Assembly (NCBI RefSeq): GCF_000430005.1 | Contig: NZ_AUCY01000012.1 | Location: 1-64,000 of the forward strand | Origin: Desulfovibrio cuneatus DSM 11391 | GTDB lineage: Bacteria; Desulfobacterota; Desulfovibrionia; Desulfovibrionales; Desulfovibrionaceae | Reading direction: 5' to 3' | Length of the DNA: 64,000 bases | Part shown: positions 4,803 to 62,675 of the stretch, piece by piece | Layout: each line of letters starts with the position of its first letter | Numbering within the stretch: the stretch's first letter is position 1 | Notes under the pieces: generated by a model | What the model was told of the DNA's origin: nothing | The model's database searches: none | What the model saw: the letters and a program-made list of their open reading frames with translations, nothing else | Program-made: the position numbers and the translations under genes

Positions 4803-5017
4803 TAGAAACGCTGATTTATTCCGTTTGGCGGCGTTACTTCACTTTTTTTGAAACAGTCGAGGACGGAAGAGTTGACTCGGCCCGTCCTGGGCCTCGGCCT
4901 TCGGCTCCCGCCCTGCGGGCAGTTCCCAATTCCGCTTTCCTGCAGAATTGTCACTCCTGTTTCCAAAAAAGCTCGTGCCTTGCCAAACGAAATAACTGCG
5001 CGTTTCAAAAATGCCAT
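4803..5017 (+). repeat. Family 1 long inverted repeat, expanded copy
   Basis: Left arm from TAGAAACGCTG (4803) to TTTTTTTGAAAC, right arm from GTTTCCAAAAAAG to GCGCGTTTC, with right flank AAAAATGCCAT ending at 5017. The loop is expanded by a GC-rich insert. The left arm points away from any plus-strand gene, unlike most copies, so this may be the remnant 3' end of a lost gene. It occupies part of the 705-base gap between the Mo hydroxylase gene and the PreA-like gene. Confidence 0.75.
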
Positions 5018-5341
5018 TTAATCAGTGTTTGCTTAGCTGTAATGGCAGTTTTGAAGGTGGCAATGTGATTTGCTTTGCGCTTGCTGCCTTATGCGGCTGG
5101 CCACGCATTCTTGCAGCACCGTAAATAGGGCTGAAGATCTGCTTACGGCGCTGCTTGGCGTTACACGCGGGCCCCTTCCGCATTGCGGAGGGGAATTTGG
5201 TGTGGTTCCTTTTCTACAGGGGGAAGGGGCACCACGGAAATTTATTTGATGATGCGTGAGGGATTTACCTTTAGCAGTGGCAGGCGCGGTGGAAGTGTTC
5301 AGTTTTTGTGTTTGGCAAGGCGCAAGTTTTTTTGCACCATA
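5018..5341. other. Gene-free spacer with GC-rich stem-loops
   Basis: No coding signal. It contains a stem CCCCTTCCGC-ATT-GCGGAGGGG near 5171-5193, a second imperfect stem near 5200-5240, and a degenerate half-copy of the family 1 right arm (TTTGGCAAGGCGCAAG, about 5310-5335). Confidence 0.5.
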
Positions 5342-5468
5342 GGAAACGCGCAGTTTTTGGTTTTGGCAAGGCGCGAGCCTTTTTCCACACGGTGGCTGGA
5401 CTCTTCGGTCCTGCCCCGCGTGGAAAAAGGTGAAGCAACGCCGCCAAAATCAAAAAATCAGCGTTTCC
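5342..5468 (-). repeat. Family 1 long inverted repeat abutting the PreA-like gene stop codon
   Basis: Read on the minus strand, the stop TAA (5471-5469) is followed at once by GGAAACGCTGA. The hairpin loop carries GGCAGGACC / GGACTC-type sequence (CGGGGCAGGACCGAAGAGTCC in minus orientation) and the element closes with CGCGTTTCC at 5342. Stem length is about 50 bases with mismatches. Confidence 0.85.
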
Positions 5469-6554
5469 TTAGTAGGCGATGTGGAGAGCAGCAGGCTTAC
5501 AACGACTCACGCACAGCCCACACCCAAAGCACTTTTCTTTGTCCACAGTCCATGCTTCGGTAATATCAATGGCTTCATACACACAGCTTACCTTGCACAG
5601 GCCACATTTTGTACAGCGTTCCTGGTCGCAGGTAGGCAGTTCCACGTGTTTGCGGGGCTTGCGTTCATGCAGTTTTTTGCGGGTAAGGCCCACAATTTCG
5701 CTTACATCTTTGTAACCCTGCTTGTCCAGGAAGTCGGAAAGCTGCTTGGCAATTTTGCCATACACGCCGGGGCCTTTCAGAATAGCCTCGGTGCAGGTTT
5801 GCACAGCCGCAGCACCAGCCATAAGCATTTCAGCTGCGTCTTTACCATCAGCCACGCCGCCAACGCCGATTACCGGAATTTTCACAGCGCCGCACACGTC
5901 AAAAATGGTGCGAATGGCAATGGGGCGAATGGCGCGGCCTGTAAGCCAGCCGTAACCGCTTTCACTGCCCATAAGGGGGAAGCCAGTTTCAATATCAATG
6001 CCCATGCAGGGGCCCACGGAGTTGATCATAACCAGGCCGTCTGCCCCGGCATTTTCGCAAGCTTTGGCAATTTCGGTAATGTCGGTGTGGGGGCTCATTT
6101 TCATGAACACAGGTACATCCAGGGCTTTTTTTGCGGCGCGCAGGGCGTCCAGCATGGGTTCCATGCTTGTGCCCACGTAGTGCACAGACATTTCCACGGC
6201 GTCGGCAAAGGGCTTTACCATGGGGGCGACTTTTGCAATTTGTTCCGCAGTGTAGCCAAGGCCCACAATAACGGGCAGGCCAAGCTTTTTAATTTCAGGG
6301 TATTCATGCTCAACCCAGTGTTCCGGGGTGAGTTCAGACCATAGCTCGGTGTTCAGAAAGCCGCTGTTGGTCAGGGTCATGCAGGGGCGGGGCACGTCGG
6401 CTGCTTTGGCAGAAATGGTTTTGGTCACAATGCCGCCAGCGCCGCCTTCGGCTGCCTGCTTGCACAGTTCTGCGTCTTTGGCACCGGGGCCTGCGGCTGT
6501 CATGATGGGGTTGGGGAACTCAAGTCCGCAAATGATCGTTTTAAGATTAGCCAT
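5469..6554 (-). CDS. PreA-like dihydroorotate/dihydropyrimidine dehydrogenase-family flavoprotein with C-terminal 2[4Fe-4S]
   Basis: Protein of 361 residues. Residues 1-290 form an FMN-binding TIM barrel of the dihydroorotate/dihydropyrimidine dehydrogenase family (LEFPNPIMTAAGPG, GADGLVMINS, PVIGVGGVADGKDAAEML). Residues 305-361 hold two ferredoxin motifs (CTKCGLCKVSC and CFGCGLCVSRC). The closest named relative is PreA of NAD-dependent dihydropyrimidine dehydrogenase, but no preT gene is present. The loop that in this family reads N-x-S-C-P (catalytic Cys) reads EMSVHYVG around residues 121-128, so the catalytic cysteine is a valine here. That argues for altered chemistry. A strong AAGGAG precedes the ATG. 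It lies in the nucleobase block between the permease and Mo hydroxylase genes. It is not a housekeeping PyrD, given its ferredoxin tail and context. Confidence 0.75.
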   Translation of the reverse strand: MANLKTIICGLEFPNPIMTAAGPGAKDAELCKQAAEGGAGGIVTKTISAKAADVPRPCMTLTNSGFLNTELWSELTPEHWVEHEYPEIKKLGLPVIVGLGYTAEQIAKVAPMVKPFADAVEMSVHYVGTSMEPMLDALRAAKKALDVPVFMKMSPHTDITEIAKACENAGADGLVMINSVGPCMGIDIETGFPLMGSESGYGWLTGRAIRPIAIRTIFDVCGAVKIPVIGVGGVADGKDAAEMLMAGAAAVQTCTEAILKGPGVYGKIAKQLSDFLDKQGYKDVSEIVGLTRKKLHERKPRKHVELPTCDQERCTKCGLCKVSCVYEAIDITEAWTVDKEKCFGCGLCVSRCKPAALHIAY

Positions 6555-9354: not shown

Positions 9355-9407
9355 GTTCTTCCCTCCAGCAGTGACGAAAAGCGTGGGTCTGAGTACCCTG
9401 TGTGTAT

Positions 9408-9492
9408 AAGACCATTGCAATTGTGCGTTTTGCGTGCTTTTGGGAAAGCCTTCCTTGTGGGAACCGCTCTACGATTATTTTGCAATGGTCTT
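9408..9492. repeat. Family 2 short inverted-repeat element (AAGACCATTGCAA ends)
   Basis: An 85-base element bounded by AAGACCATTGCAA (9408-9420) and TTGCAATGGTCTT (9480-9492), a perfect 13-base terminal inverted repeat. Related ends recur at 42761-42796, 51027-51215 and 51562-51607. It lies 54 bases upstream of the ssnA start, inside the apparent operon. Confidence 0.75.
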
Positions 9493-9577
9493 ATGGCAGC
9501 CGTTAAAGGCAGAAAGTGCGTCCTGTTGGTATTGTATGAGCAGGGTGGTATTAAGGATGGACGGATTGCGTGGCGTT

Positions 9578-9702
9578 GGGAATCGCTCAGTTTTGGGTTT
9601 GGCAAGGCACGAGCTTTTTTTGAAGCGGGTGCTGGACGCTTTGGTCCTGCCCCGCTTTAAAAAAAGCAAGTAACGTAGCCAAACGTAAAACTGAGTGGTT
9701 CC
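9578..9702 (-). repeat. Family 1 long inverted repeat abutting the ridA stop codon
   Basis: On the minus strand the ridA stop TAG (9705-9703) is followed by GGGAACCACTCAG, then a stem of about 50 bases with loop GGGGCAGGACCAAAGCGTCC and closing arm AAGCTCGTGCCTTGCC to GCGATTCCC. The two arms carry compensating changes relative to other copies (CAG/CTG and TTTTACG/GGGTTT parts), so the stem is kept. Confidence 0.82.
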
Positions 9703-10083
9703 CTAGCGTGCAGCAACCACTTCAATTTCTACCTTAGCACCAAGGGGCAGGGCCTTAACGGCAAAGCAGCTACGGGCAGGGAATGGGGCGCTGAAAAAGC
9801 TGGAGTACACTTCGTTCACGGCAGCAAAGTCTGCCATGTCCACCAAGTACACAGTGGTTTTTACCACTTTGTCCAGGCTGGTACCGGCAGCTTCCAAAAT
9901 GGCCTTTACGTTGGCAAGGGAATTGGTGGCCTGTTCCTTAATGCCTTCTGGCATGGCCTTGGTGGCTGGGTCTATGGGCAACTGGCCGGAGGTGAACACA
10001 AGGTCGCTGGTGGCAATGGCCTGGGAATAGGGGCCAATGGCGGCGGGGGCTTTTTCAGTAGCGATTACGGTGCACTTGCTCAT
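9703..10083 (-). CDS. ridA: RidA family reactive imine/enamine deaminase
   Basis: A 126-residue protein of standard RidA (YjgF/YER057c/UK114) length with the family features AIGPYSQAI, FTSGQLPIDP, VVKTTVYLVDMADF and the arginine in PARSCFAV that binds carboxylate. RidA hydrolyses 2-aminoacrylate and similar imines produced by PLP enzymes and lyases. It is the first gene downstream of the sigma-54 promoter, so it probably heads the transcript that runs into ssnA, the permease and beyond. Placement suggests it removes a reactive enamine made during ring catabolism (inference). Confidence 0.92.
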   Translation of the reverse strand: MSKCTVIATEKAPAAIGPYSQAIATSDLVFTSGQLPIDPATKAMPEGIKEQATNSLANVKAILEAAGTSLDKVVKTTVYLVDMADFAAVNEVYSSFFSAPFPARSCFAVKALPLGAKVEIEVVAAR

Positions 10084-12089: not shown

Positions 12090-12115
12090 TTAGGGGAGGC
12101 AGAAACCTCCCCTAA
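12090..12115 (-). terminator. GC stem-loop after peptidase T
   Basis: TTAGGGGAGG and CCTCCCCTAA form a perfect 10-base stem ten bases after the pepT stop. There is no strong U-run, so it may be a processing or weak termination signal. Near-identical GGGGAGGC stems occur at 13606-13630 and 40154-40176. Confidence 0.5.
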
Positions 12116-12124
12116 CGGAATAAC

Positions 12125-13363
12125 TCAGCGTTTCTTGGCGTTAAGCTCGCAAATGCGGCGCGTAAGCTCATAAGAACTTACAAAAGAGGGCACCGGCAGA
12201 AACTCGAAAGGAGAGTGGAAGTTGTGCGCCCCGGTGAAATAGTTGGGGGTAACAAGACCACGGGCAGAAAGGGCGGAACCGTCTGTGCCGCCGCGCATGG
12301 CAATGACGTTGGGGGTAATGCCCAGCTCTTGCATGGCTTCAAAAATAAGGGCAATGGAAGGGTGCCCTTCTTTCCCAACAGCATTGGCAATGTTGCTGTA
12401 CACGTCGGTCACGGTGCAGGTAACCTTGGCCCGTGGGTGGCGGGCTTGCACCAGCGTGGCTGCCTGCTGGATAAAGGCCTTGCGTTCTTCAAAGCTGGCT
12501 TTGTCGAAGTCGCGAATGGCCATTTGCAGCACGGCCTTGTTGGGGTTTGCTACCATATCGGTAAACCAGAAGTAGCCTTCGCGTCCTTCGGTGTGTTCCG
12601 GGGTGTCGCGCCTGTCGAAATAGCCCATAAAGTCGTGGGCCACGCGCAGGGGGTTTACCAGTACGTTTTTAGCAGACATGGGGTGGGCGGTAATGCCCGT
12701 AATTTCAAGGGTGGCAAACGCTGCGTTGAATGTTTCATACACCACTTCGCCCAGGCCGCATGAATCAATGGTGTAGGCAAACTGCACGGGAAAGCGCTGT
12801 AAGTCCAGCTTGTTGGACCCTTTCAGGCCTATTTCTTCATCTGGCACAAAGGCCACATACATGTCACCCATGGGCGGGTTTTCCGCCTTCAAGTTAGCCA
12901 GCAGGGTCATAATAACGGTAATGGCGGCTTTGTTGTCTGCCCCAAGCACGCTGGTGCCGTCGCTGAAAATAATGTCCTGCCCCTTGTAAGGAGCACTTTC
13001 CGGGTGTTCATCTACCCGGAACCAGATGTCTTGTTCTTTGTTCAGGCACAGGTCTTGCCCGGTAAAGTGCAGCACCTGGGGGTGCACATGGGGGGAAATA
13101 GCCACGTCCACCGTGTCCAGGTGGGCCACAAAGCCAATGGCAGGGGCGCTGGCAACAGTGCCGGGCCTGCGGGCGGTGACAATGGCGTGCTCGTCCATGT
13201 GCACATCCACAAGGCCAAGGGCTTGCAGTTCCTGCACCAGCAGTTTGCCAAGTTCGCGCTGGCCTTCAGTGCTGGGCACGGCAGGGCTTGCGGCGTCGCT
13301 TTGGCTGGTCACCGCAGCATAGCGGAAGAAGTTATCGGTAAGTTGTTTGTCTAGTGTTTTCAT
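12125..13363 (-). CDS. pepT: Peptidase T (tripeptide aminopeptidase)
   Basis: A 412-residue M20 metallopeptidase, the usual PepT length. Visible motifs: GFVAHLDTVD (metal histidine and aspartate), LGADNKAAI (bridging aspartate), FVPDEEIGLKG (catalytic and metal glutamates), ITAHPM and RGGTDGSALS, with the last metal histidine in TGAHNFHSPFEFLPV. It removes N-terminal residues from tripeptides in the cytoplasm. The start at 13363 has CAGGAG nine bases upstream. It follows an AbgT-type transporter gene, which suggests peptides or aminoacyl conjugates as shared substrates. Confidence 0.93.
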   Translation of the reverse strand: MKTLDKQLTDNFFRYAAVTSQSDAASPAVPSTEGQRELGKLLVQELQALGLVDVHMDEHAIVTARRPGTVASAPAIGFVAHLDTVDVAISPHVHPQVLHFTGQDLCLNKEQDIWFRVDEHPESAPYKGQDIIFSDGTSVLGADNKAAITVIMTLLANLKAENPPMGDMYVAFVPDEEIGLKGSNKLDLQRFPVQFAYTIDSCGLGEVVYETFNAAFATLEITGITAHPMSAKNVLVNPLRVAHDFMGYFDRRDTPEHTEGREGYFWFTDMVANPNKAVLQMAIRDFDKASFEERKAFIQQAATLVQARHPRAKVTCTVTDVYSNIANAVGKEGHPSIALIFEAMQELGITPNVIAMRGGTDGSALSARGLVTPNYFTGAHNFHSPFEFLPVPSFVSSYELTRRICELNAKKR

Positions 13364-13405
13364 AGTATTCTCCTGCATAAGAACCATTGCCAACTGATTT
13401 GTTGA

Positions 13406-17013: not shown

Positions 17014-17139
17014 GGAAACGCTCAGTTGTTTCGTTTGGCTAGGAATGAGCTTTTTTTGAAGCAGGAGTGGACTCTTCCGTCCTCGACTGTTTCAAAAAAA
17101 GTGAAATAACACCGCCAAACGGAATAAATCAGCGTTTCT
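17014..17139 (-). repeat. Family 1 long inverted repeat inside the hmc operon
   Basis: On the minus strand it starts with AGAAACGCTGATTTATTCCG about 27 bases after the hmcE stop, has loop AGTCGAGGACGGAAGAGTCC, and closes with AAACGAAACAACTGAGCGTT (the element's other end at 17014). It separates hmcE from hmcF. The orientation matches the other gene-abutting copies. Confidence 0.85.
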
Positions 17140-17166: not shown

Positions 17167-17856
17167 CTACCAGGGAAAGCAGGGGCCTCTTCTGTGCCCG
17201 CCACGCTTGATGCTGTAGTCGGCCCCAAGCTGCCAGCGGGAGGCAAAGTACAACACAATGTGGGAAAGCTTGGTGAAGGGGGCAAGAACCAGCATCAATT
17301 CCCCGCTGATAATATGTACCAGCAGCCAGCCATCAGAACCTGCGCTGCTTACCCGTGCAATAAAGCCGCTGACAAAAGGCACTGCCACCAGGGCTATGAT
17401 GAAATAATCATAAGCCGTAGTAATAATGCGCACTTCCGTAAGGGCAATGCGGCGAAGAATGATGAAGAACAGCCCGATAATGGTTGCCACGGTGAGTACG
17501 TCTGTAACACCTTGTGGCAGGGAAGGCAGGCCAAACCCGAAGCGCATCCGCAAAATTTCGTTGTGGGCTGTTAAAAACAGCGGCACAAGCACTGCACCAA
17601 GGTGCAGCAGGAAAAAACAGATGGTGAAAAAGGGTTGGGCGCGCCAGCCAAAGGTGCCAAATGGCACCAGCCATTTATAGGCGGAGTACAGGCCGCCGCG
17701 CATACCTTCCGACATGTGCGGCTTGTAGGCCACACGGTCCAGGCGCCAGTCTAGCCCCATGAAATACAGCACAAGCCGAACGGCAAGGCCTATAAAGAAT
17801 ACAGCCAGAGAAATGATTAGCCCCGGCCCTGTGAGAAACGACATCAACGATTCCAT
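17167..17856 (-). CDS. hmcE: HmcE, membrane haem b-type subunit of the Hmc complex
   Basis: A 229-residue membrane protein with about five or six hydrophobic segments, related to the gamma subunits of nitrate reductases (NarI/DsrM-like), which carry haem b. Histidines lie in several helices (FFLLHLGAVLVPLF, LLVHIISGELML, KLSHIVLYF). The start ATG at 17856 has GGAG six bases upstream; the upstream in-frame extension lacks membrane character and was excluded. It is the fifth gene of hmcABCDEF, with length close to the known family. A stem-loop and 112 bases precede it. Confidence 0.9.
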   Translation of the reverse strand: MESLMSFLTGPGLIISLAVFFIGLAVRLVLYFMGLDWRLDRVAYKPHMSEGMRGGLYSAYKWLVPFGTFGWRAQPFFTICFFLLHLGAVLVPLFLTAHNEILRMRFGFGLPSLPQGVTDVLTVATIIGLFFIILRRIALTEVRIITTAYDYFIIALVAVPFVSGFIARVSSAGSDGWLLVHIISGELMLVLAPFTKLSHIVLYFASRWQLGADYSIKRGGHRRGPCFPW

Positions 17857-23956: not shown

Positions 23957-24100
23957 GGCTGCATATCTTTCCTATTGTTAACCCGTTGAATTATTGACTT
24001 GAGAAGTTCGGATGCGGGTAAAGAGAACGGAATGACTCGATAAATAACAAAAAAGAGCCGGGCATTCTTGCCAGGCATAACACCGGGGAGGTGGCTGGCC

Positions 24101-27100
24101 GTGAACAGTCGCACAATATACGCAAAATCTTCATTGGTGGTGAGCCATTACGGGCAGCAAATGAAAATGTTGTTGCTGAGTGTGATTGCCTTTATTTTTT
24201 TAGGGCTGCCGACCTCACTGGCCATAGCGAATGGCGGGCGCGGCGGCGGTGATCTTTCCGGGGCAGGGGGGGCCAGCTCAATTACCGGCAATGGCGGCAA
24301 CGGGGGAAACTCTATCGGAGCGCGCGGTGGTGGTGGTGGTGGCGCTGGCGTAAGGGGCGGCGACGGCGGCCGATCCTCCTCTGGGAATACTAACCCTGTA
24401 GGTGTGGGGGGGCAAACTCCCGGTGCCAATGGTACCAATGGTGGCCATGCCTCGGCTGGTGATGGGGGAGGTCATGGGGGCGGGGGCGGTGCTCATCGTC
24501 TGGTGCTGATTATGGACTCTATTCAAACTGCCATACTCAGAGGTGGCAATGGTGGCACAGGCGGCGGTGCCGGCGGTGCCACGGCGGGCTTGGGCGGCGG
24601 CGGCGGCGGGGGCGCTGGTGGCTTCGGAGTGGTAGTCAATTCTGCCCTTGGTGGAAACCCATTATCCCTCGCTATTTCGAGCATAGCACAGGTTTTTGGC
24701 GGTAACGGCGGTGCTGGTGGGTCACGGGGCAATGGAGTAGCACCCACAGGGGGCGCTGGTAGCGGCGGTTTGGGAGGAGTCGGGATTTTCTTCACTGGTG
24801 GTGGCGTACTTGATAACGCGGGTACTGTGCAGGGCGGCACCGGGGGCGCACCGGGCGCAGCGACTTCCCTTGAACGAGGATTGAATGCTGCGGGCGGCGC
24901 GGGGGTGGTCGGCTCAAATTTGCAAATCAACAACAGTGGTACCATTCAAGGGGGCAATGCCGGTAGTGGCCTTACAACCCCCACTGCACCAGCCGTTGCT
25001 GGCGGTGTTGGTATTTCTGGTCAAAACCTGAATGTTATCAATAGCGGCAGGATTCTTGGCGGCCTTGGGCTTGACGTTGGCGGCATCGGTAGCATCCGTG
25101 CCAATGCCATTGAGTTTACTGGTGGCACCAATAGGCTGGAATTGCAGGCAGGCAATACCATTACTGGCAATGTGCTGGCCTTTAGTAGTGCTGATACGCT
25201 GCGGCTGGGTGGCGCGGAAGATGCCGGCTTTAATACCGGGCAACTGGGTGCTTTGGGTACTGCACTGCAATTTCAGGGGTTTGGCCATTTTGAAAAGGTG
25301 GGCAGCAGTACCTGGACGTTGACAGGCACCCCCACACAATCGACGCCGTGGACGATTTCTGAAGGGACTCTTTCGGTAGCCAGCGGTTCTTCTCTTGGTC
25401 ACCCAACAGGTGACCCGGTGACCATTCAGACTGGTGGTGCGTTGGCAATCACTTCCCCCACCACACTGTTAAACACCATTGTGCTTGGCATTGGGGGTGG
25501 CATTATTGATGTTGCCACGGCCCTGGCAAGCGATGTGCTGGTCATGAATGGTCAGATCAGCGGGACACACCTGACCAAAACTGGCATTGGCACCATGCGG
25601 ATGAACCAAAACGTCAATATCAGTTTGACAACCGTGGCAGAAGGGCTGCTGGAGTTGGGCAATGGGGGTGCCAGTGGCTGGATAACTGGCAATATGGAAG
25701 TTGAAACCCCTGGTATTTTGGCCTTTAGCCGTGCCGATAACGTGACCTTTGGCGGGACAATTTCCGGCGATGGATCGGTTCGGCAAACAGGGAGTGGCAT
25801 CACAACCCTGACGGGCAATAACAGCTACACCGGCACGACTTCCATTGAAGCAGGTGGGTTACGGGTAGGCAATGGTGGCAACAGCGGTACATTAACCAGC
25901 GATGTTTCCCTGGCCAGCGGTACCAGCCTCGGCTTTAACCGTACCGGCCTCTGGAATTTTACTCACAGCATTACAGGTGATGGTGCACTGCTACAAATAG
26001 GCAGCGGCACAACAGTACTCAGTGGTAACAATAGCGGTTTTAGCGGAAACACCTCCATTACAGGCGGTAACTTGCGTGTTGATGGCGTGCTGGGTGATGG
26101 CAGCAACACGGTTGCGGTAAGCAACGGAGCGGGACTTCAGGGAAGCGGCACGGTAGATGGAAATGTGACCGTGGCCAATGGCGGTATTTTGTCCCCAGGG
26201 GCAGGAACGGATGGGGTGGGAGCGCTGCACATTGGAGGCAACCTGTCCTTAAATAATGCTTCCCAGCTCAATTATAACCTGGGGCAGGCCGGGGTAACCG
26301 GTGGGTTTTATAACGATATGGTAACCGTGGGCGGCAACCTGGTGCTTGATGGCATCCTGAATGTGGCCACAGTTCCCGGCGGCACCTTCGGCCCTGGTGT
26401 GTACCGACTCTTTTCTTATGGCGGCAGCCTTACCAACAATGACCTGGCACTGGGCACTGGCCTCAACAATATAGACCATTCCATTCTTACCCGCGTTGCA
26501 GGCGAAGTGGATTTGGTCAATACCACCGGCCTTACCCTTAATTACTGGAACCCGGATCAGGATCTCAATGTCCTCAACGGTGGGAGTGGCGTGTGGCAGG
26601 GCGATTCAGGCAACACCAACTGGGCTGATACCAACTTAACGGCTAATGGCCGTTTCACTCCTGGCAGCTTTGCCATTTTTGCTGGTACTGGTGGTACAGT
26701 GACTGTGGATAACAGTGCAGGCACGGTGACCAGTGGTGGTATGCAATTTCTTAGCGACGGGTACACAATTGAAGGCGATGACCTCACCCTCGCTGATGGC
26801 ATGAATGTTATCCGTGTGGGTGATGGCACGGCAGCCAGTGCAAGCAAAACTGCCACCCTCGACAGCGACCTGGTGGGCAACGGGGGCCTGGACAAGGAAG
26901 ACTTTGGTACCCTGCTCCTCACCGGAGACAATACCTACAGAGGCGGCACCATTATTACCGATGGCGTTCTTCAACTGGGAGATGGGATAAATGCGGGGTC
27001 CATCAGTGGTCATGTAACCAACGACGCTACCCTGGCCTTCAATAACCCCAACAGCCTATTCAGCGGCATTATTAGCGGCAGTGGTGATGTGCACCAAATG

Positions 27101-30100
27101 GGCGGCACCACCATTTTTACCGCCAACAACGCCTACACTGGCGCTACCTCCATTGATAATGGCAGTACCCTGCAACTGGGTGATGGCATCACAGCAGGGG
27201 CAATTACGGGGACCAGTGGCATTACCAACAGTGGTACCTTTGCCTTTAACAACCCCGGCATTACCACATTCAACCGTGTAATTAGCGGCAGTGGTGATGT
27301 GCGCCAAATGGGCGGCACCACCGTTCTTACTGGCAGCAGCACATACAGTGGTGCCACCACCATTGACAATGGCAGCACCCTGCAATTGGGCAACGGAAAC
27401 ACAGCCGGGGCAATTACCAGCACCAGCGGCATTACCAACAGCGGCACCCTTGCCTTTAACAACCCCGGCACCACCACCTTTGACCGCGTCATTAGCGGGA
27501 ACGGCAACGTGCACCAAAAGGGCGGCACAACGGTGCTGAGCGGAACCAGCAGCGGCTTTAGCGGCAGCACCTCCATCACGGGCGGTAACTTGCGCGTTGA
27601 TGGCGTGCTGGGTGATGGCAGCAACACGGTTGCGGTGAGCAACGGAGCGGGCCTTCAGGGCAGCGGCACGGTAGATGGAAATGTAACCGTGGCCGACGGC
27701 GGTATTTTGTCCCCAGGGGCAGGAACGGATGGGGTGGGAACGCTGCACATTGGCGGCAACTTGTCCTTAAATAATGGTTCCCAGCTTAATTATAACCTTG
27801 GGCAGGCCGGGGTAACCGGTGGTTCCTATAACGATATGGTAACCGTGGGCGGCGACCTGGTGCTTGATGGCACCCTGAATGTGGCCACAGCCCCCGGCGG
27901 CACCTTCGGGCCCGGTATATATCGCATCTTTTCTTACGTTGGCTCCCTCATCAACAACGGCCTGGCCCTGGGCACAGGCCTCAATAGCACTGATCACTCC
28001 ATTCTTACCCGCATTGCAGGAGAAGTGGATCTGGTCAATACCAACGGCCTTACCCTTAACTACTGGAACCCGGATCAGAACCTCGGCACCCTCAATGGTG
28101 GGAGTGGGGTGTGGCAGGGCGATTTAGGCAACACCAACTGGACAGATACCAACGCTACGGCTATGGGCCGCTTTACCTCCGGCGGTTTTGCTATTTTTGC
28201 CGGCACGGGCGGTACAGTGACTGTGGATAACAGTGCAGGCGCGGTGACCAGTGGCGGCATGCAGTTTATGAGCGATGGCTACAAAATTGAAGGCCAAGAT
28301 ATAACCCTTGCCAGTGGCAAAAACGTTATCCGTGTAGGCGACGGTACAGCAGCCAGTGCTGGCAAAACCGCCACCATTGAAAGCGACCTTGTGGGCACTG
28401 GTGGCGTTGACAAAGAAGACGCCGGAACCCTTATTCTTACTGGCACCAATACCTACACAGGCGGCACCAAAATTACCGACGGGGTTCTCCAACTGGGCGA
28501 CGGGGTAACTGCGGGTTCCATCACCGGCAATGTCACCAACGACGCTACCCTGGCCTTCAATAACCTGAGCAGCCTATTCAGTGGTAGTATCAGCGGGATG
28601 GGTGATGTGCATCAAATGGGCGGTACCACCATTTTTACCGCCAGCAACACCTACACTGGCGCTACCACCATTGATAATGGCAGTATCCTGCAACTTGGTG
28701 ATGGCATCAGCGCAGGGGCAATTACTGGCAGCAGTGGCATTGCCAACAGCGGTACCTTTGCCTTTAACAACCCCGGCACCACCACATTCAACCGTGTCAT
28801 TAGCGGTAATGGCAATGTGCACCAAATAGGCGGCACAACGGTTCTTACCTCCAACAATACTTACAGCGGTGTTACCAACATCGACAACGGTGGTACCCTG
28901 CAATTGGGCGACGGCACCACAGCCGGGGCAATTACCGGTACCAGCGGCATTACCAACAGCGGCACCCTTGCCTTTAACAACCCTGGCACCACCACCTTTG
29001 ACCGTGTAATTAGCGGCAATGGCGAAGTGCACCAAATGGGCGGCACCACCATTCTTACCGCTACCAACACCTATAGCGGTGCCACCACTATTGATAGCGA
29101 CAGTACCCTGCAACTGGGTGACGGCACCACAGCCGGAGCAATTACCAACATCAGCGGCATTGACAACAGCGGTACCCTTGCCTTTAACAACCCCGGCACC
29201 ACTATCTTCGACCGCGTTATTTCTGGCATCGGTGGCGTGCACCAGAAGGGCGGCACTACCGCGCTTACCTCTGACAACACGTATAGCGGCATCACCACCA
29301 TTGACAACGGGAGCACTCTGCAACTGGGCAATGGCGCGGCGAGTGGCAGCATCAACAGCAGCAGTGGTATCAGCAATGACGGTACCCTGATCTTCAACAA
29401 CTCCGGCACAACGTCCTTTGATGGCAGTATTAGCGGCAACGGGGATATAGAGCAGCGCATTGGCAACCTTGTCCTTAACGGCAACAGTGCCAACTTCACC
29501 GGCAATACCCAGGTGAACGGTGGTATTATGCAGGTGGACGGTACCCTTGGGGGCAGCAGCAGTTCTCTTGCTGTAAACACAGGGGCGACCTTAAGTGGCA
29601 GCGGAACCCTTGGTGGCAATGTTACCGTTGGGGCTGGCGGCACCCTTTCCGCTGGTGCGGGAAATGGCATTGATTCCGTAGGGCATCTTTCTGTCAATGG
29701 TAACCTTGCACTTGATTCTGCCAGTACGGTTAATTTTGACTTTGGCGAGGCTGGTGCTGTTGGCGGCCAACTGAATGACCTAGTGGATGTGGCAGGCAAC
29801 CTCACCCTGGCTGGCATCCTGAATGTCAATGTACCCCCTGGCGGCATCTTCGGCCCCGGCCTGTATCGTATTTTCAACTACGGTGGCAGCCTTGTGGACA
29901 ACGGCCTGCTCATTAGTACAGAGCCAGTACCCGGCGAAACCCACGTGCTTACGGCCATTGACCACGAAGTTGATCTGGTCAATACCGCTGGCCTTGATAT
30001 GACCTATTGGGATGGCGGTAATACGGCCTTGCATAACAACAGCCGTATCGACGGTGGGAGTGGTACATGGTCTTTGGCGGCGCTCAACCGGGCTTGGACT

Positions 30101-33100
30101 AGTGAAACTGGCACTGTCAACAGTTCTTACACTAACCCTTCCTTCTCTATTTTTGCGGGAAAGGCCGGAACAGTGACGGTGGATAACAGCGCAGGGCAGG
30201 TCAGGTCTGAAGGCATGCAGTTTGCTGTGGATGGCTACCGCATTCAGGGCGATAGCATTGAGCTTGAAGCGGGCAACAATATTGTGCGTGTGGGCGACGG
30301 CACTGTTACCAGTAAGGATTACACCGCCACCATTGATGCACCGCTTACAGGCAGCGGCGCAATGGAAAAATACGACGTAGGTACCTTGATACTGACTGGT
30401 GCCAACACCTACAGTGGCGGTACCACCATTACGGGCGGTACGCTGCAATTGGGTGATGGCGTAAGTACAGGCTCTATCATTGGCGACGTTACCAACAACG
30501 CCATCATGACCTTTTATAATCCTGGCACCACCACCTTTGATGGCACCATTACCGGAACTGGTGCTGTGCGCCAGGAAAGCGGCACAACGGTGTTTACCAA
30601 AGACAACACCTACAGCGGCGGTACCTACATTCGGGCAGGCGGTACGCTGCAACTTGGCAACGGCATTGGTGGCGGTGCCAGTGGCTGGTTCACTGGTGAT
30701 GTACTGAATGAAGGCGGGCTGGTTTTCAACCGTTCCAACAGCGCCAACTATGGTGATGTCATTTCCGGCTCTGGGACCGTAACGCAACAAGGCAGCGGCA
30801 CCACCACCCTTACCGGGGCCAACACCTATACTGGCGGCACGTTCATTACTGGTGGCACCCTGCAACTGGGTGACGGCATTACAGCAGGTTCTGTTACCGG
30901 GAATATTACCAACAATGCCAAGCTGGCCTTTAACAGCCCCGGCACCACCACTGTTGACAACGTCATCAGCGGCAACGGGCAGATTGCCCAGGAAGGTGGC
31001 ACAACAGTGCTGAGCGGCAACAGCGCCAATTTCAACGGTAACACGCAGGTGAACAATGGTAACCTGCAAGTGGAAGGCACCCTCGGCTCCAGCAGCAGTA
31101 GCCTGACAGTGAACGCAGGGGGCACCCTGAGCGGCAGCGGCACCCTTGGCGGCAATGTGAACGTGGGCAGTGGCACCCTTTCCGCCGGGGAGGGGAATGG
31201 CGTGGATTCCGTTGGGCACCTGCATGTGGGTGGCAACCTTGCACTGGATTCTGCCAGCACCCTCAACTTTGACTTTGGTCGGGTAGGCGTGGTGGGCGGC
31301 GTTGATAACGACCTGGTAAGCGTGGGCGGCAACCTGGTGCTTGACGGCATCCTGAATGCCACTACCGTAAGCGGCGGCACCTTCGGCCCTGGCGTGTACC
31401 GCCTGTTCTCTTACGGCGGTAGCCTTACCAACAACGGCCTGGATTTGGGCACAGGTCTTAGCCCCGCTGATCACTCCATTCTTACCCGCATTGCAGGTGA
31501 AGTGGATTTGGTGAACACCGCTGGCCTTACCCTGAACTACTGGAACCCGGATGGGAGCACCAGTGCCCTTAATGGTGGCAGTGGCGTGTGGCAAGGCAGC
31601 TCAGGCAACACCAACTGGACAGATACCAACCTTACGGCCAACGGCCGTTATACCGACAGCAGTTTTGCCATTTTTGCCGGAACGGGCGGTACCGTCACTG
31701 TAGATAACAGCCAAGGCACGGTGACCACTGGCGGCATGCAGTTCCTTACCGACGGGTACAGAATTCAGGGAGAAGATGTAACCCTTGCCAATGGCGACAA
31801 CGTCATTCGCGTGGGTGACGGCACGGCAGCGCGGGCAGGAACCAAGGCCACCATCGACAGCAATTTGGTGGGCGCAGGGGGCATTGACAAGGAAGACCAT
31901 GGCACCCTGGTGCTTACCGGAACGAACACCTACACCGGCAGCACCAAAGTGACTGATGGCGTGTTGCAACTGGGCGACGGGACAAATGCAGGCTCCATTG
32001 ACGATACCAGCGATGTTGCCATTCGCAGCGGCGGTACCCTGGCCTTCAACAACCCCGGCACCACTACCTTTGACCCCAACATTAGCGGCACAGGTGCGCT
32101 GCACCAGATGAAAGGCACCACCATTCTTACTGGTGCCAACGCGTTCAACGGTGCCACCACCATTGACGGCGGCAGTACTCTGCAACTTGGCAGCGGTGGT
32201 ACCAGCGGCTGGATTGCCGGAAGCGTGAGCAACAGCGGCACCCTTACTTTTAACCGCTCTGATGCCAATACGTATGCAAACATCATCAGCGGCACTGGCG
32301 GCGTGGTGCAACAAGGTGGCGGCAACACCCTTCTGACCAATGCCAACACCTATGTGGGGAACACCACCGTCAACCAAGGTACCCTCACCCTTTCCGGGGC
32401 TGGCAGCATCAACGCTGCAAGTACCGTAAACATTGGTGCAAGTGGCAAATTCAATGTTGAAAATATCACCACCAACAGCGGTAACTACACCTTTGCCAAC
32501 CTGCTTACGGGCAGCGGCCTGCTTAGCGTGGCACTGAATACGGCAAGCAACACCTTCAACTTTGGGGCCAACACTGGCACCGCCTTTACAGGCACCTTGG
32601 CCCTGGGAAGAAGTATTTTCGAACTTGCTGGCGACAACACCAAGGCATTGGGTAACGCTACCCTTGAACTCAACAACGACAACCTGACAACGGTAGGCAC
32701 TGGCAACCAGGCTATTGGCAACCTGCACCTTAACGGCGGGGCACTCAGCTTTGCCAACCAGCCCACTGGGAAAATTACCACCAACACCCTTACCCTTGAT
32801 GACGGGCAAATTCGCATCAACCCGGGGAACACAGCGGACACAAGCGGCAACCTCCTGACCCAAGATGAGGGAATGCGCAAGGTGCTGGTTACGGCCAATA
32901 GCGTTACTGGCAGCGCCAGCAACCTTGACCTGGCTGACCTTTCCGGCACTGCCCTCAGCAGTTCCGATATGGGAATTGTGCAAAGCGGCCGTACTGTTGC
33001 CACAGGCTCTTACGGCTACAACCTTGGCAACAGCGCCACAGAGCTGTTCCTGAACTCAAACTTGTTCCGTATCACCCTGCTTTCCGGTGAAACACTCACC

Positions 33101-36100
33101 CTTTCCGGTGATGCAGCCGCACCCGCCGGTGCCAACGACATGACGGCCCTTATTACCGGCGCAGGCAACCTTACCATTACTGCAACGGATCGTATTCTCC
33201 TCGATAATAGTAATAACAACTATACGGGCAAAACCACTGTTACCAGCGGTACCCTGGCACTTGGCAGCGACCAGGCCCTTGGCAACACCAGCCAGTTGAA
33301 TATTGCCGCCGGGGCCAGCACTGACCTTGGCGGGCACAGCCAAACCATCAACAGCCTCGCTGGAGCGGGCAATTTGCTCATGGCCAATGGCGCACTCACC
33401 GTAACTAACGGCGGCGCATTCTCCGGGGCAATTTCCGGCACTTCCGGCAATTTGCACCTTAACTCCGGCACTCTGATTCTTTCTGGCGACAACACCTATA
33501 CAGGAAGCACCAACATCGACCTGGCAGCAACGTTGCAAATGGGTGAAGGTGGAGCATCTGGACGTTATGCTGGGGACATCAGCAACCAGGGCAACGTTGT
33601 TTTCGATAACACTGGGGCAGACGTAACCTATGCTGGGGTCATTTCCGGCAGCGGCTCGTTGACCCAGCAAGGCGACAACACCTTGACCCTGAGCCAGAGT
33701 AATACCTACACCGGCAGCACCGCTGTTGCTTCCGGCACCCTGAAATTAACTGGTGCGGGCAGCATCAGCCCAACCAGCGCAGTTGCTATTGGTGACGGTG
33801 CAACCTTCCGTATTGAAAACACCACAGCCAACGGTGGTGATTACCTGTTTGTCAATCCGTTACGCGGTACGGGGACCCTGTCTGTGGACCTCATAAATAG
33901 TGCCAACATATTCGACTTTGGCAGTGCCGCCGGAACAGTTTTTGCCGGAACACTTGACCTTGGACGAAGCACGTTTGACCTTTCCGGGCAAAATACCCTT
34001 GCCTTGCAAGACGCAACACTGGTGGCCAGCACAGGCAATACCACCACTGTGGGAAATGGAAACCAGGTGCTTTCCGGCTTCAAGTTCAATGGTGGCACCG
34101 TGTATTTTGACGCAGACAATCCTCCCTCAGGCACTATTGCCCATACCATCATAGAAACCACAGACCTGCTGGACGTTTCCCAGGACGGTACGGCCCAAGT
34201 TGATATCCCAGCGGGCTTCACCACCAACCCACCGGTGGTGGACACCAACTTGTCGCTCCTGGAACAGGATGATGATAATGTCCAACTGAAGCTCATCCAG
34301 GCCAATGACCAAGTTATTGGCAGTGCCGGGGCCATTGAACTCATCGACGAGAATGGTGACGAGATTACTAACGAAACCACCCTGGACATTAGCAACACGG
34401 TGGGAGGGCCAAACGTTGCCAAAGGGCATTACGACTACCGCCTGACCACCAGCTCCGCCAATGATGGCCTTTACATTAACTACGGGCTTTTGCAACTTGA
34501 CCTTATAGGCCAAGGAAGCGATGCCACCATCCTTTCACCCCGCGCGGGCGCAACAGCTACTGCGGCAGATTTATCCGCATTGCTCACAGGCAGCGGTGAT
34601 CTGGCCATCGTCACCCAGCCGGGGGACTATGTGTCGCTCTCCAACTTGAACAACGACTACACAGGCACCACCACGGTACGTAGCGGCAACCTGAAACTGG
34701 CCAACGATAATGTACTCGGGAACACCTCAAACCTGACTATCGCCGCAGGTGGCGCCGTTGACATGGATGGGTACACCCAATCTGTTGGCGCCCTGAACAC
34801 CGTGGCAGGCAGCCAGCTTCTTGTTGACGGCAGCCTCAACATTACCAGCACGCAACGTACACCGGGCGAAACAGCGGGTGGCGGCGTTGACGTGAACTCT
34901 TTGTATGGCGCTGGCGAACTGCATATTGACGACAGTAGGGTATATGTAAACAAGACCCAGAGCGGCTTTACTGGCAATGTCATTCTTGATGGTGGTGCCA
35001 CTTTGTTCCTGAACACCGCCAAAGGCTTTAACGCAGAAAGCCTGCATCTTTCCCACGCGGACGACACCCTGATTTTCGGCGATGAAAGTCACTTCAACGC
35101 AGCCTGGACTTCCATTCCACAGGGCGACCATGGTATCTCCCTTAGCGGTATAGGTAACGTTTCTGTGCAAGATAGCTCGGACGTTAATTTTACCGCGGAC
35201 AACAGCGACTTCTCAGGTCGCTTCCTCATTGGCGACAGCTCTGTGCTGCGTGCCTCCCAGGCCAACAACCTGGGCAGCGCGAGCATTGACAATGCCGGGA
35301 CTGCCGTTCTTACTGTGAATAATGATTGGGATCTTACCAATGCTATGACGGGCGACGGCACCCTGATTAAAGACGGCAGTGCCACCCTGCGGGCAGACCA
35401 ATCCCTGGCGGCCTTCAGCGGTACCACCCAGGTTAAGGCGGGTACCCTGGCCTTTGGTGACACGACACCCTCGGTTGGTGGCAACATCGGCGGGAATGTT
35501 ATTGTAGAGAGTGACGCGGTACTGTTGGGCCATGGCAGCATCGCTGGCGGCCTTAACAACGCAGGTACTGTTCGTCTGAGCGGTGATGGTGGTGCAGTGC
35601 TTTCCGTTGCGGGCAACTATATGTCCAATGGTGGCTCGCTGTACCTTAACACTGTGCTTGGCAACAGCCAGTCCCTTACCGACCGCCTTGTGGCAGGTAG
35701 CGTAAGCCTTGGCCCTGGTGGCGCCACGAGGTTGTATGTGAACAATGTTGGCGGCCTGGGTGCGAAAACCACAGGTAACGGGATTGAAGTGGTGCATGTT
35801 AACGGCGGTGCGGCTGCATCTGCTGCGGGTGCGTTTGTACTGGGTGACCACGTCAAAGCAGGTGCCTACGAATATTCGCTTTACCACAATGGCGTAGGTG
35901 GGGCCAATGGGAGCTGGTATCTGCGTTCTGCCAATGACAGCCCGGTTGGCCCGTCCGATCCCTATCGTCCTGAAGTGCCTGCCTATATGGTTTCTTCCGC
36001 GTTAGCCAGCAAGTTTGGTCTTGCCATGCTGGGCACCTGGAATGAGCGTTCAGGTTCCTATGCCAGCGCTAATACATCTGGTTCTTCGCAGGCTGAGCAT

Positions 36101-37954: not shown

Positions 37955-37996
37955 GAAACGCTTGTGCCGTGCCAACCGAAAAACCGAGTGATTCCC
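37955..37996 (-). repeat. Solitary right-arm fragment of family 1
   Basis: GGAAACGCTTGTGCCGTGCC to GAGTGATTCCCC matches the distal arm of the long inverted repeat (compare 9578-9620), followed by the flank AAAGGCCATTTTAA. No left arm is present. Confidence 0.55.
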
Positions 37997-38147: not shown

Positions 38148-38681
38148 ATGCATAGCGTGAAACCACAGCTTACCATACACGCCCTTGGCAGGGAAGATGC
38201 CCCCGCCCTGGCCCAGCTTGAAGCGGCCTGCTTCAGCACACCCTGGCAGGCAGAGCAGTATGACCAGTTCATTGCCTCGGGCATGGGGCAGGCGCAAGGC
38301 CCCGCGCCCTTGGCGCAGGCTTTGGCCTGCTGCCCCAACAAGGCCGCGGCGGGGTTTGTTGCCGGGGCCGTTACTGCCCACCACGAACTGGTGGGGTATA
38401 TTTCTTTTGTGGCCCAGTTTGCCGCAGGTGAAATTGAAATTTATAATGTGGCTGTAGCCCCGGCCATGCGCCGTGCAGGCACTGCCAGGCAATTGCTCAC
38501 AGCCATGCTTGAAGCCGCCACAGGAACAGGTATTGCCCAATTTTTCCTGGAAGTGCGGGAACACAACCTGCCCGCCCTGGGCCTGTATTACGGCGCAGGG
38601 TTTAGCCTGTGTGGCAGGCGCAAAGCCTATTATGCGGATACGGGCGAAGATGCCCTGCTGCTGAGCCTGGAGAAACGCTGA
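38148..38681 (+). CDS. rimI: Ribosomal protein alanine N-acetyltransferase RimI-type
   Basis: A 177-residue GNAT acetyltransferase. Motif A region IYNVAVAPAMRRAGTARQLL binds acetyl-CoA, and LEVREHNLPALGLYYGAGF followed by RRKAYYADTGEDALLLSL is the characteristic RimI C-terminus. RimI acetylates the N-terminal alanine of ribosomal protein S18. An internal segment (residues 45-75) is longer than usual. The last codons and TGA stop lie within a collapsed copy of the family 1 repeat. Confidence 0.9.
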   Translation: MHSVKPQLTIHALGREDAPALAQLEAACFSTPWQAEQYDQFIASGMGQAQGPAPLAQALACCPNKAAAGFVAGAVTAHHELVGYISFVAQFAAGEIEIYNVAVAPAMRRAGTARQLLTAMLEAATGTGIAQFFLEVREHNLPALGLYYGAGFSLCGRRKAYYADTGEDALLLSLEKR

Positions 38682-38699
38682 GCGTTTCCCAAATGCCAT
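38671..38699 (+). repeat. Collapsed family 1 repeat overlapping the rimI stop
   Basis: AGAAACGCTGAGCGTTTCCC: only the two termini of the long inverted repeat remain, joined as a palindrome, followed by the family's right flank AAATGCCAT. The TGA of rimI (38679-38681) lies inside it. Confidence 0.65.
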
Positions 38700-51561: not shown

Positions 51562-51607
51562 AAGACTATGGAAAAAACACGCAAAACATAGTTTTGCAAT
51601 GGTCTTA
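51562..51607. repeat. Short family 2 element
   Basis: TTAAGACTATGG at the left and CATAGTTTTGCAATGGTCTT at the right, 46 bases in all; a compact version of the 51027 element. Confidence 0.6.
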
Positions 51608-51695
51608 CATTACACTGCGCTTCCATGCCGGCCGTGCTGCAACCACAGCAGGGCATTTTTTTCACATAAATTTGGGGGCAAAGAGCCTGTGTGGG

Positions 51696-52947: not shown

Positions 52948-53262
52948 ATGACAGACCATTCCGAAAATACCACGGAAAACACCAGCGAAGGCCAGGGCAA
53001 TATGGGGTATTCACCTATTATGCCCATGCCCACGTTCTCCACCTTCATTCTCTCCCTGGCCTCTTCTGCTCTGGTACAACTGGGGGAAGCGCCAGACCCC
53101 TCCAGCGGAAAAATGGAAGAAGACATTGCCCTGGCAAAACACACCATTGATATTCTTTCCATGCTCCAGGAAAAAACACAAAGCTGCCTGGATGAAGATG
53201 AAAAGCGCCTCATGAACGGCCTTTTGTATGAATTGCGTATGAAGTATGTGGTAAAACGATAG
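52948..53262 (+). CDS. DUF1844 family protein
   Basis: A 104-residue acidic protein. After a low-complexity N-terminus, the stretch PMPTFSTFILSLASSALVQL, with EDIALAKHTIDILSMLQEKT and LMNGLLYELRMKYV, matches the conserved DUF1844 domain, which in Desulfovibrio is commonly near argC. Function unknown. AAGGAA lies six bases upstream of the ATG. It starts 28 bases after the aminotransferase. Its TAG stop forms the first bases of a family 1 repeat. Confidence 0.88.
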   Translation: MTDHSENTTENTSEGQGNMGYSPIMPMPTFSTFILSLASSALVQLGEAPDPSSGKMEEDIALAKHTIDILSMLQEKTQSCLDEDEKRLMNGLLYELRMKYVVKR

Positions 53263-53388
53263 AAACGCTGATTTATTCCGTTTGGCGGCGTTGCTTCACT
53301 TTTTTTGAAACGGGGCAGGACCGAAGAGTCCAGCCGCCGTTTCAAAAAAAGCTCGCGCCTTGTCAAACGAAATAACTACGCGTTTTTT
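53262..53388 (+). repeat. Family 1 long inverted repeat abutting the DUF1844 stop codon
   Basis: TAG-AAACGCTGATTTATTCC, with arm to TTTTTTTGAAAC, loop GGGGCAGGACCGAAGAGTCC, right arm GTTTCAAAAAAAGCTCGCGC to CGCGTTTTTT. This is the cleanest copy, with a stem of about 50 bases ending in a T-run, so it could act as an oversized intrinsic terminator. Confidence 0.9.
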
Positions 53389-53537: not shown

Positions 53538-54602
53538 ATGAAGGCAGAACAGACAATTCGGGTAGGGCTTGTGGGTGTAACGGGTTACACGGGCATGGAA
53601 CTGGTGCGCCTGCTGGCAGGGCACCCCCGCATGCAGTTGGTGCAGGTTACTTCCCGTAAAGAAGCAGGCACCCGCCTGGACGAGCATTACCCCTTTACCC
53701 AGGGCCTGCCCTGCGGGGAACTGGTTATTTGCGAACCAGACCCAACAGCGCTTGCTGCCGGGTGCGACATTGTGTTCCTTGCCATTCCACATGGTGCTGC
53801 CATGAACATGGGGGCAGAACTGGTGAACAAGGGGTGCCGCGTGGTGGACCTTTCAGCAGACTACCGCCTGCGTGACATTCCCACCTATGAAGCATGGTAC
53901 AAGGTGGAACACACCCAACAGGCCATGCTGGCCGAAGCGGTGTATGGCCTGCCGGAACTGTATGCCGCAGACATTGCCAAAGCACGCTTGGTAGCAAACC
54001 CGGGGTGCTACCCCACTGCCTCCATTCTGGGCCTGTACCCTGCCCTTAAAGCAGGGCTTGCACAGCCCGATGATATTGTGATTGATGCAAAATCCGGCAC
54101 CAGCGGGGCTGGGCGCGGGGCAAGCGTGGGCACCTTGTTTTGTGAAGTTTCCGACACCTTTCGGGCCTACAACCTGGCAGCCCACCGCCACACCCCTGAA
54201 ATTGAGCAGGAAGTTTCCCTTGTGGCCGGAGTGCCCATTACCCTTTCCTTTAACCCGCACCTGTTACCCGTAAACCGGGGCATTCTTGCCACCATTTACA
54301 CCCGCTTGGCAAACGACAGCACCACAGTAGAACAGGTACATGCCGCATACAAAGAAGCGTATGCCCCCCACAGTTTTGTGCGGGTTTTGCCCTTGGGTAA
54401 ACTGCCGGAACTGAAGAACGTGCGCGGCACCATGTTCTGCGACATTGGGCTGGTGGTAGATAAACGTACCAAACGCCTGATTATTGTGAGTGCCATTGAT
54501 AACCTGTGCCGTGGCGCTTCCGGCCAGGCAGTGGCCTGCGCCAACCTTGTGGCCGGACTGCCCTTGGAAACGGGGCTACGTCTTGCCCCCATGGTCCCCT
54601 AA
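53538..54602 (+). CDS. argC: N-acetyl-gamma-glutamyl-phosphate reductase
   Basis: A 354-residue enzyme of arginine synthesis. N-terminal NADP-binding GVTGYTGMELVRLLAGHP, then FLAIPHGAAM, DLSADYRLRD, the catalytic cysteine in VANPGCYPTASIL near residue 158, and HRHTPEIEQE. It reduces N-acetylglutamyl phosphate to the semialdehyde. The start at 53538 has AAGGAG six bases upstream. The stop TAA is followed directly by GGAAACGCTGATTTATTCCG, a truncated family 1 left arm. Confidence 0.97.
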   Translation: MKAEQTIRVGLVGVTGYTGMELVRLLAGHPRMQLVQVTSRKEAGTRLDEHYPFTQGLPCGELVICEPDPTALAAGCDIVFLAIPHGAAMNMGAELVNKGCRVVDLSADYRLRDIPTYEAWYKVEHTQQAMLAEAVYGLPELYAADIAKARLVANPGCYPTASILGLYPALKAGLAQPDDIVIDAKSGTSGAGRGASVGTLFCEVSDTFRAYNLAAHRHTPEIEQEVSLVAGVPITLSFNPHLLPVNRGILATIYTRLANDSTTVEQVHAAYKEAYAPHSFVRVLPLGKLPELKNVRGTMFCDIGLVVDKRTKRLIIVSAIDNLCRGASGQAVACANLVAGLPLETGLRLAPMVP

Positions 54603-54622
54603 GGAAACGCTGATTTATTCCG
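54602..54622 (+). repeat. Truncated family 1 left arm at the argC stop
   Basis: GGAAACGCTGATTTATTCCG follows the argC stop directly and then diverges; a different terminator hairpin lies 45 bases further on. Confidence 0.7.
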
Positions 54623-54667
54623 TTATTTTTCTAGCTTAGACAGCCTATTTCTCTATAGGAGTTGCAG

Positions 54668-58168: not shown

Positions 58169-58187
58169 GGAATAAATCAGCGTTTCC
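58169..58187 (-). repeat. Family 1 left-arm fragment at the mreB stop
   Basis: On the minus strand the mreB stop TAG is followed directly by GGAAACGCTGATTTATTCC; the rest of the element is missing. Confidence 0.7.
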
Positions 58188-62514: not shown

Positions 62515-62675
62515 GGAAACGCTGACTTTTTCCGATTGGCTTTGTCGCTACGCTTTTATTATAAAAAAATTTCCTCAAATAACATACGCATGAAGAGCAA
62601 ACACTCTTCATGCGTATGTTGTTTGAGATAAATAATGCGAATAACGTAGCCAAACGGAAAAAATCAGTACTTCCC
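62515..62675. repeat. Family 1 element exactly filling a convergent gap
   Basis: GGAAACGCTGACTTTTTCCG follows the TAG at 62514, and on the other strand GGGAAGTACTGATTTTTTCC follows the TAA of the permease gene at 62676. Both ends therefore abut stop codons. In place of the usual loop is a separate 24-base stem with one mismatch (62574-62597 with 62604-62627, loop CAAACA). Confidence 0.85.

Follow-up and report, generated by a model that had tools for sequence, protein, structure and literature searches.

In the original paper on YPAL (RU-2), a repeat of Yersinia, the copies are reportedly located close behind stop codons. According to PMC2229807, the inverted repeats of YPAL are internal, its ends lack TA and its duplications measure 3-26 bp, and it may affect the stability of the upstream message. 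The same paper describes ERIC (IRU, RU-1) as a 127-bp repeat that is co-transcribed with its neighbours and has effects on message stability (PMC2229807). GTAG-tagged REPs are palindromic repeats of 20-40 bp, the ends of which often supply the TAG stop codon of a flanking gene (PMC3733652). Insertions of the IS5 family typically carry YTAR duplications (PMC10359306), and bacterial MITEs abutting genes are well known (PMC2229807, PMC3733652, PMC2759123). A literature search at the level of titles and abstracts, with most subscription journals outside its coverage, gave no report of the family described here in Desulfovibrio, nor of an orientation rule at stop codons.

The DNA analyzed was a stretch of 64 kb from Desulfovibrio cuneatus DSM 11391, below called the window. 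An earlier note on this DNA had described hairpins of about 125 bases beginning at or close to stop codons, always in the same orientation to the gene. Copies and fragments in the window were detected with a profile built from three window copies, and are collected together with shorter remnants in Table 1. Profile hits and reading of the flanks confirmed that copies or remnants do start at the stop codons of the six genes listed in the note, namely PreA-like, ridA, DUF1844, argC, mreB and the gene for an acidic protein. Hairpins as such were present behind the first three; argC and mreB are followed only by remnants of about 20 nt, and the copy at the acidic-protein gene has a foreign interior. 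The copy said to lie 27 bases behind 'hmcE' was found there as a full hairpin, and the rimI stop codon does lie in a collapsed copy. The motif GGAAACGCTGA occurred 43 times in the window with up to two mismatches, against a shuffle mean of 14.1 (sd 3.8).

Table 1. Copies and remnants of the element in the 64-kb window.
Feature	Position	Strand	Relation to genes and flanks
Long-form copy, about 229 nt, with extra loop insert; right tail present	4804-5032	plus	Away from stops; right flank TTAG
Right-arm fragment of a further copy	5291-5336	minus	Immediately downstream of copy 5342-5468
Full hairpin copy, 127 nt; recognisable right tail absent	5342-5468	minus	Left end adjoins PreA-like stop 5469-5471
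Full hairpin copy	9579-9702	minus	Directly 3' of ridA stop; CTAG at left
Left-end remnant, weak profile match	12100-12135	minus	M20-type peptidase gene 12125-13387 ends on TGA inside remnant
Full hairpin copy	17014-17139	minus	About 27 nt past stop of gene 17167-17856 ('hmcE')
Collapsed copy, left arm fused to right arm	38671-38689	plus	Internal TGA is the end of rimI-type gene
Full hairpin copy	53261-53387	plus	Overlaps DUF1844 stop TAG
Solo left-end remnant	54603-54624	plus	Directly 3' of argC stop (CTAA)
Solo left-end remnant	58169-58187	minus	Directly 3' of mreB stop (TTAG)
Copy with foreign interior	62515-62674	plus	Left end at acidic-protein stop (TTAG); right end adjoins stop of convergent gene 62676-63968

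Nine window proteins were searched against Pfam. Matches were DHO_dh and 4Fe-4S for the PreA-like protein (5469-6554), RidA-type at 9703-10083, M20 peptidase at 12125-13387, GNAT at 38148-38681, DUF1844 at 52948-53262, an ArgC-type semialdehyde dehydrogenase at 53538-54602 and MreB at 58188-59210. The matches bear out the gene names of the earlier note with two exceptions: the match of the 'hmcE' protein was nitrate-reductase gamma, and the search gave none for the acidic protein. The interior of copy 62515-62674 is a hairpin with 24-nt arms that are 96% complementary, and the ends of this copy adjoin the stop codons of two convergent genes. A weak right-arm profile match at 37956-37995 (plus strand, E 0.00055) is perhaps an old fragment. 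A second motif, TAAGACCATTGCAA, was observed at 9406-9494 and at about 51600-51640, at one of the two places in inverted-repeat form; it may be part of a different small mobile repeat. The window also contains an open frame of 4300 codons at 24068-36970 (plus strand), which by the look of its sequence encodes a large repetitive surface protein.

The hairpin of 125 nt is real, and is the larger part of a longer unit and not the complete copy it had been taken for. The unit measures 148-151 bp and consists of the hairpin followed by about 25 nt, the last of which repeat the left end in inverted orientation. Both ends are conserved across this unit, and full copies are up to 97% identical to the consensus. 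Longer copies of about 229 bp, which have an extra insert in the loop, form a second size class. Scanning of 1.264 Mb of the genome with profile HMMs gave 120 copies and fragments, 77 of them with both arms, and by extrapolation the whole genome (3.36 Mb) would hold some 320 copies and fragments. The element is thus short, without a transposase gene and present in many copies, as is characteristic of a MITE; it also has a near-complete internal palindrome. Copies with the same ends and another interior, of the GCCGACGGCAGTCGCGAGC type, were observed in the genome sample at C2:23666-23989, on the minus strand of C4 at 51266 and at C1:316277. The family exchanges its interiors and retains its ends and its position at stop codons. 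Left-end sequence without the family interior stands after the stop codons of up to 30 genes, as flagged by a script among 77 stop-adjacent genes and including at least two reverse-orientation copies, and in several of them it is directly followed by an ordinary-looking terminator. Such interior-less left ends are probably scars of collapsed palindromes.

The position behind stop codons goes beyond chance, a point that the earlier note had wished to see checked. Of 65 left ends in 800 kb beyond the window, 31 lay within -2 to +1 nt of a same-strand stop codon, and 7 further genes ended on a TGA inside the left repeat. Among 33 right ends (window included) a single one was located at an opposite-strand stop codon, and one more gene ended inside the right end. 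A match of at least 13 of 19 positions to the left end was found right after the stop codon in 77 of 985 genes (window included), compared to 5 of 3940 positions 31-79 nt further on; genes were called by a purpose-made codon-usage script instead of a standard caller. The complete genome G128 had left-end-like sequence right after the stop codon in 8 of 311 genes (control 0 of 1244). Frequent placement directly behind stop codons, together with a strong fold (-69.7 kcal/mol, z -8.4, predicted for copy 5342-5468), is what would be expected of regulatory or terminator structures built into the 3' ends of genes and evolved in place. This origin is scarcely credible. No terminator-like site, that is a hairpin with a U-tract, was called at copies 5342-5468 and 53261-53387, the two regions scanned, and only four tRNAs reached the Rfam gathering score in the window. 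Moreover, about half of the copies are away from stop codons, and the target duplications, element-free homologues and patchy distribution presented below all speak for DNA that has moved.

The four bases at the left flank followed the consensus YTAR (Y in 89, T in 79, A in 68 and R in 105 of 114 flanks), and so did those at the right flank (Y 40, T 31, A 33 and R 36 of 43). Exact 4-bp duplications were found at 27 of 97 two-ended copies, compared to 5.3 by permutation, and 0 of 5000 permutations reached 27. The count spans four genomes, with 12 of 70 copies in this genome (2.9 expected), 9 of 11 in G004 (2.8), 5 of 13 in G011 (1.4) and 1 of 3 in G031 (1.3); the fifth genome, G009, had zero two-ended copies. 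Pairs departing from the consensus also matched (ATAA/ATAA, TTTT/TTTT and CTAT/CTAT), and the same was true of TTTA. Matching of off-consensus flanks is the mark of a true target duplication. In this genome most copies had no exact duplication, and several well-preserved ones had YTAR on one side only.

Genes with and without the element end at nearly the same place. A homologue was available among the loci examined for eight of the 35 genes that have a copy at the stop codon, and in 8 of 8 cases at least one element-free homologue ended within two residues. Alignments that covered less than half of the protein or stopped more than 15 residues short were dropped from this comparison; one weak homologue (25% identity) ends 93 residues later. 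For DUF1844, ten relatives without a copy ended within one residue of the same place. Terminal repeats, duplications and element-free gene ends support the mobile repeat that the earlier note had offered as its second explanation; its target is YTAR, and the targeting of terminators then suggested found no support.

The element was detected in 6 of 59 relatives at E 0.001; across the order, 11 of 348 genomes from four genera had it at E 1e-8. Both counts include this genome. Carriers among the matches listed were Desulfovibrio sp. MES5, Desulfovibrio sp. Im510_bin30, Desulfovibrionaceae UBA930 and Deltaproteobacteria TD116_bin81. Copies 90-94% identical to the consensus occur in other genera, whereas 21 longer alignments of MES5 loci to this genome were 65-75% identical, a difference which suggests that the element has spread horizontally. 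The plasmid and phage collections searched gave no match to the element.

Searches of this genome gave no match to PF01609 or PF05598, and none to the IS5 transposase of a sister genome. The same transposase query found none in three other carriers, where an empty answer is weakly informative. The sister genome, G014, belongs to the same bacterial family and contains an IS5-family transposase gene (NF033581; PF05598 and PF01609) with its 3' end cut off, located about 90 nt behind CTAG followed by GGAAACGCGGATTTACTCCGTT. The same genome has an internally deleted IS5 copy (L121, 1172-1931) that retains both terminal repeats and is flanked by TTAA at either end, likely a stage between IS and MITE. 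In G259, from another genus, the right end behind a related IS5 gene matches the first 18 bases of the MITE exactly, with CTAA next to it; the left end is beyond the contig. PF01609 genes were present in 14 of 18 relatives searched, carriers included. Two simple searches of 30 PF01609 loci from the 18 relatives found no gene flanked by matching ends, and an intact IS with both ends was not seen among the loci examined. On the strength of the target duplications and of sister IS genes with matching ends, the family was identified as being of the IS5 type.

Fragments of Y1_Tnp (IS200-like) genes number ten in this genome, and at least nine lie at contig ends (for example C15:9-221 and C20:49981-50184). 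They are a multi-copy IS that breaks the assembly. A Y1 transposase of the IS200/RAYT kind would insert next to a tetranucleotide without duplication and could in this way explain a one-sided orientation. The ten matches and the copies with YTAR on one side only would suit such an enzyme. Insertion by Y1 without duplication was nevertheless rejected as extremely improbable, on account of the matched duplications (27 of 97, off-consensus ones too); at the four Y1 loci read of the ten (L258-L261) the ends were unlike those of the element. The look-up of an associated transposase or RAYT gene, proposed in the earlier note, was rewarded in one respect, by IS5 transposases with matching ends in relatives, and not in the other, for RAYT.

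Part of the preference for stop codons is due to the target. A Y precedes the stop codon in 27 of 35 element-bearing genes compared to 194 of 634 others, so the DNA target matters. The stop was not YTAR in 10 of the 35. Occupancy was 25 of 186 for YTAR stops and at most 10 of 614 for YTAR sites 1-300 nt downstream, a difference of about eightfold, and the YTAR target alone does not explain the stop preference. Since YTAR contains TAA or TAG, insertion at a gene end preserves the stop codon. It was also considered that the element supplies the stop codon as the main cause of its position. This was rejected because the in-frame TAR of the target is already a stop codon; the homologues, too, end within two residues wherever this could be checked (8 of 8 loci). 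Roughly one gene in 13 of the sampled genome (77 of 985) ends against the element or left-end-like sequence, so a transposon has probably shaped the 3' ends of many of its messages.

The orientation to the gene had been called constant; it is nearly so at stop codons and is mixed elsewhere. Of the 77 two-armed copies in the 1.264 Mb, one was excluded as it had no neighbouring gene. Among the other 76, the left end was at a stop codon in 35 and the right end in 1, the gene ended on a TGA within the left repeat in 5 and inside the right repeat in 2, and 33 copies were elsewhere. The latter comprised 12 sense and 11 antisense copies between co-directional genes, 3 between convergent and 7 between divergent genes (35:1 vs 12:11, Fisher p 4e-5). 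A right end was counted as at the stop only 22-28 nt beyond the hairpin, and one tailless copy with its hairpin 1 nt from an opposite stop codon was listed as free; adding it gives 35:2. In other genomes the left to right counts at stop codons were 10:1 (MES5), 3:0 (G004), 8:2 (G011), 3:0 (G009) and 2:0 (G031), in total 26:3 (p 1.5e-5), and 6:2 in G128. Copies from G031, G004, G011, G009 and MES5 were chosen by similarity to the element; those of G128 and the systematic part of this genome were not. Stretches of this genome chosen for well-preserved two-ended copies gave 8 left and 3 right ends at stop codons. All two-ended copies of the duplication set gave 31 and 6, which is less one-sided than the systematic sample, and pooled two-ended copies away from stop codons were 16 sense and 31 antisense. 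The orientation bias at stop codons is strong and not absolute.

YTAR is nearly symmetric, and targeting of YTAR alone therefore predicts no orientation bias. A preference for tandem over convergent genes was tried and rejected, as the 27 to 8 observed at stop codons is much like the ratio among background stops (588 to 218). Bare left ends and copies with a replaced interior showed the same position and orientation at stop codons, so the bias follows the left end and not the hairpin. In copies away from stop codons the left flank was richer in GC than the right (0.538 vs 0.489; 44 vs 23 of 72, p 0.001, exploratory). The GC step was 0.088 at occupied stops (n=19) compared to 0.026 at unoccupied YTAR stops (n=219), with an exploratory p of 0.025. 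These GC results came after several looks at the data; the effect was gone at 20 nt when both flanks were non-coding (10 vs 11), and it weakens or vanishes in subgroups.

Another explanation for the one-sided orientation could be that insertion is even, and that sense copies behind stop codons are retained because their RNA hairpin is useful there, for instance by protecting or regulating the message at its 3' end, a role suggested for YPAL and ERIC. We regard such retention as possible, though on balance unlikely. It would account for the ratios at stop codons (35:1 vs 12:11 elsewhere; 26:3 and 6:2 in other genomes), and it agrees with several features of the copies. Diverged copies paired slightly better at stop codons (0.915, 12 copies) than elsewhere (0.868, 9 copies), and copies with a nearest neighbour at <90% were at stop codons in 13 of 21 cases, compared to 22 of 55 with one at >=90%. 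The tail was lost in 25 of 35 copies at stop codons compared to 18 of 33 free copies. The recent-looking copies of G004 are mostly away from stop codons, with 3 of 14 left ends at stops. On the other hand, the share of copies at stop codons did not rise steadily when copies were grouped by how closely their first 60 nt match the consensus (11/25, 12/23, 17/42 and 12/19), and the bias was independent of the 125-nt hairpin, as replaced interiors and bare left ends behaved alike. An increase of retention with the age of copies thus has no clear support, although the nearest-neighbour figures do rise mildly.

The arms of the hairpin bear on retention from both sides. Compensating changes, noticed earlier, are real: in 252 cells, which comprise 47 distinct types, both partners differ from the consensus and again form a Watson-Crick pair. 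Arm pairing in 93 short-form copies, computed by aligning copies to the consensus, was 0.927 compared to 0.871 after shuffling, as expected if the hairpin were selected. Single changes were A.C in 28 types (96 cells) and G.U in 25 types (46 cells). As G.U is not commoner than A.C, no preference for the transcript strand is apparent, and RNA of the reverse orientation would fold at least as well (-66.9 kcal/mol, compared to -53.1 for the consensus). With G.U not favoured and about half of the copies away from stop codons, the selection on RNA structure put forward in the earlier note found no support. Maintenance of the palindrome as DNA, through source copies or arm-to-arm correction, would fit the covariation at least as well as selection on RNA. 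Hairpins that covary and stand behind genes need to be read with caution, as they can be mobile palindromic DNA and not regulatory RNA.

Taken together, the hairpins are very probably non-autonomous MITE copies of the IS5 type, moved by an IS5-family transposase into YTAR, tolerated at stop codons and later decaying. The transposase would recognise the terminal repeats, insert copies at a 4-bp YTAR and duplicate it, as the duplications and the sister IS copies indicate. In a gene-dense genome many of the tolerated YTAR targets would be stop codons, where the protein is left intact. The favoured candidate for the orientation, tentative and drawn from the exploratory GC figures, is that insertion might prefer a step from GC-rich (coding) to AT-rich (non-coding) DNA, the left end facing the GC-rich part. 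Tail loss and palindrome collapse, to which the remnants point, would then leave left-end scars after stop codons. A more far-reaching version, in which the insertion machinery senses gene ends and picks YTAR stops at the coding-to-noncoding step, left end towards the coding side and whatever the interior, is rather doubtful. The ratio of 35:1 at stop codons against 12:11 elsewhere makes the family a clean case for asking whether the landing pattern of a transposon arises during insertion or through selection.

Compared to known systems, the element shares terminal repeats and the 4-bp YTAR duplication with insertion sequences of the IS5 family and their MITE derivatives, and sister IS remnants have a transposase beside matching ends. 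Unlike an IS5-family IS, it has no coding capacity, a near-complete internal palindrome and an extrapolated number of some 320 copies and fragments, and no transposase was found in the genome. Like YPAL it is a short palindromic intergenic mobile repeat, but it differs in having true terminal repeats and a 4-bp YTAR duplication. The similarity in length to ERIC looks like a coincidence; ERIC has TA ends and is found in enterobacteria, while the present element has YTAR flanks, a link to IS5 and another host group, a separation made by description and not by alignment. REPs are linked to Y1 transposases and are not known to duplicate their target. The element differs from GTAG-tagged REPs in its 151 bp, in the YTAR duplication and in showing no link to Y1 at the four loci read. 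Its nearest kinds are IS5-derived MITEs and the stop-adjacent palindromic MITEs such as YPAL and ERIC; the element is ordinary in kind and oddly one-sided in its orientation at stop codons.
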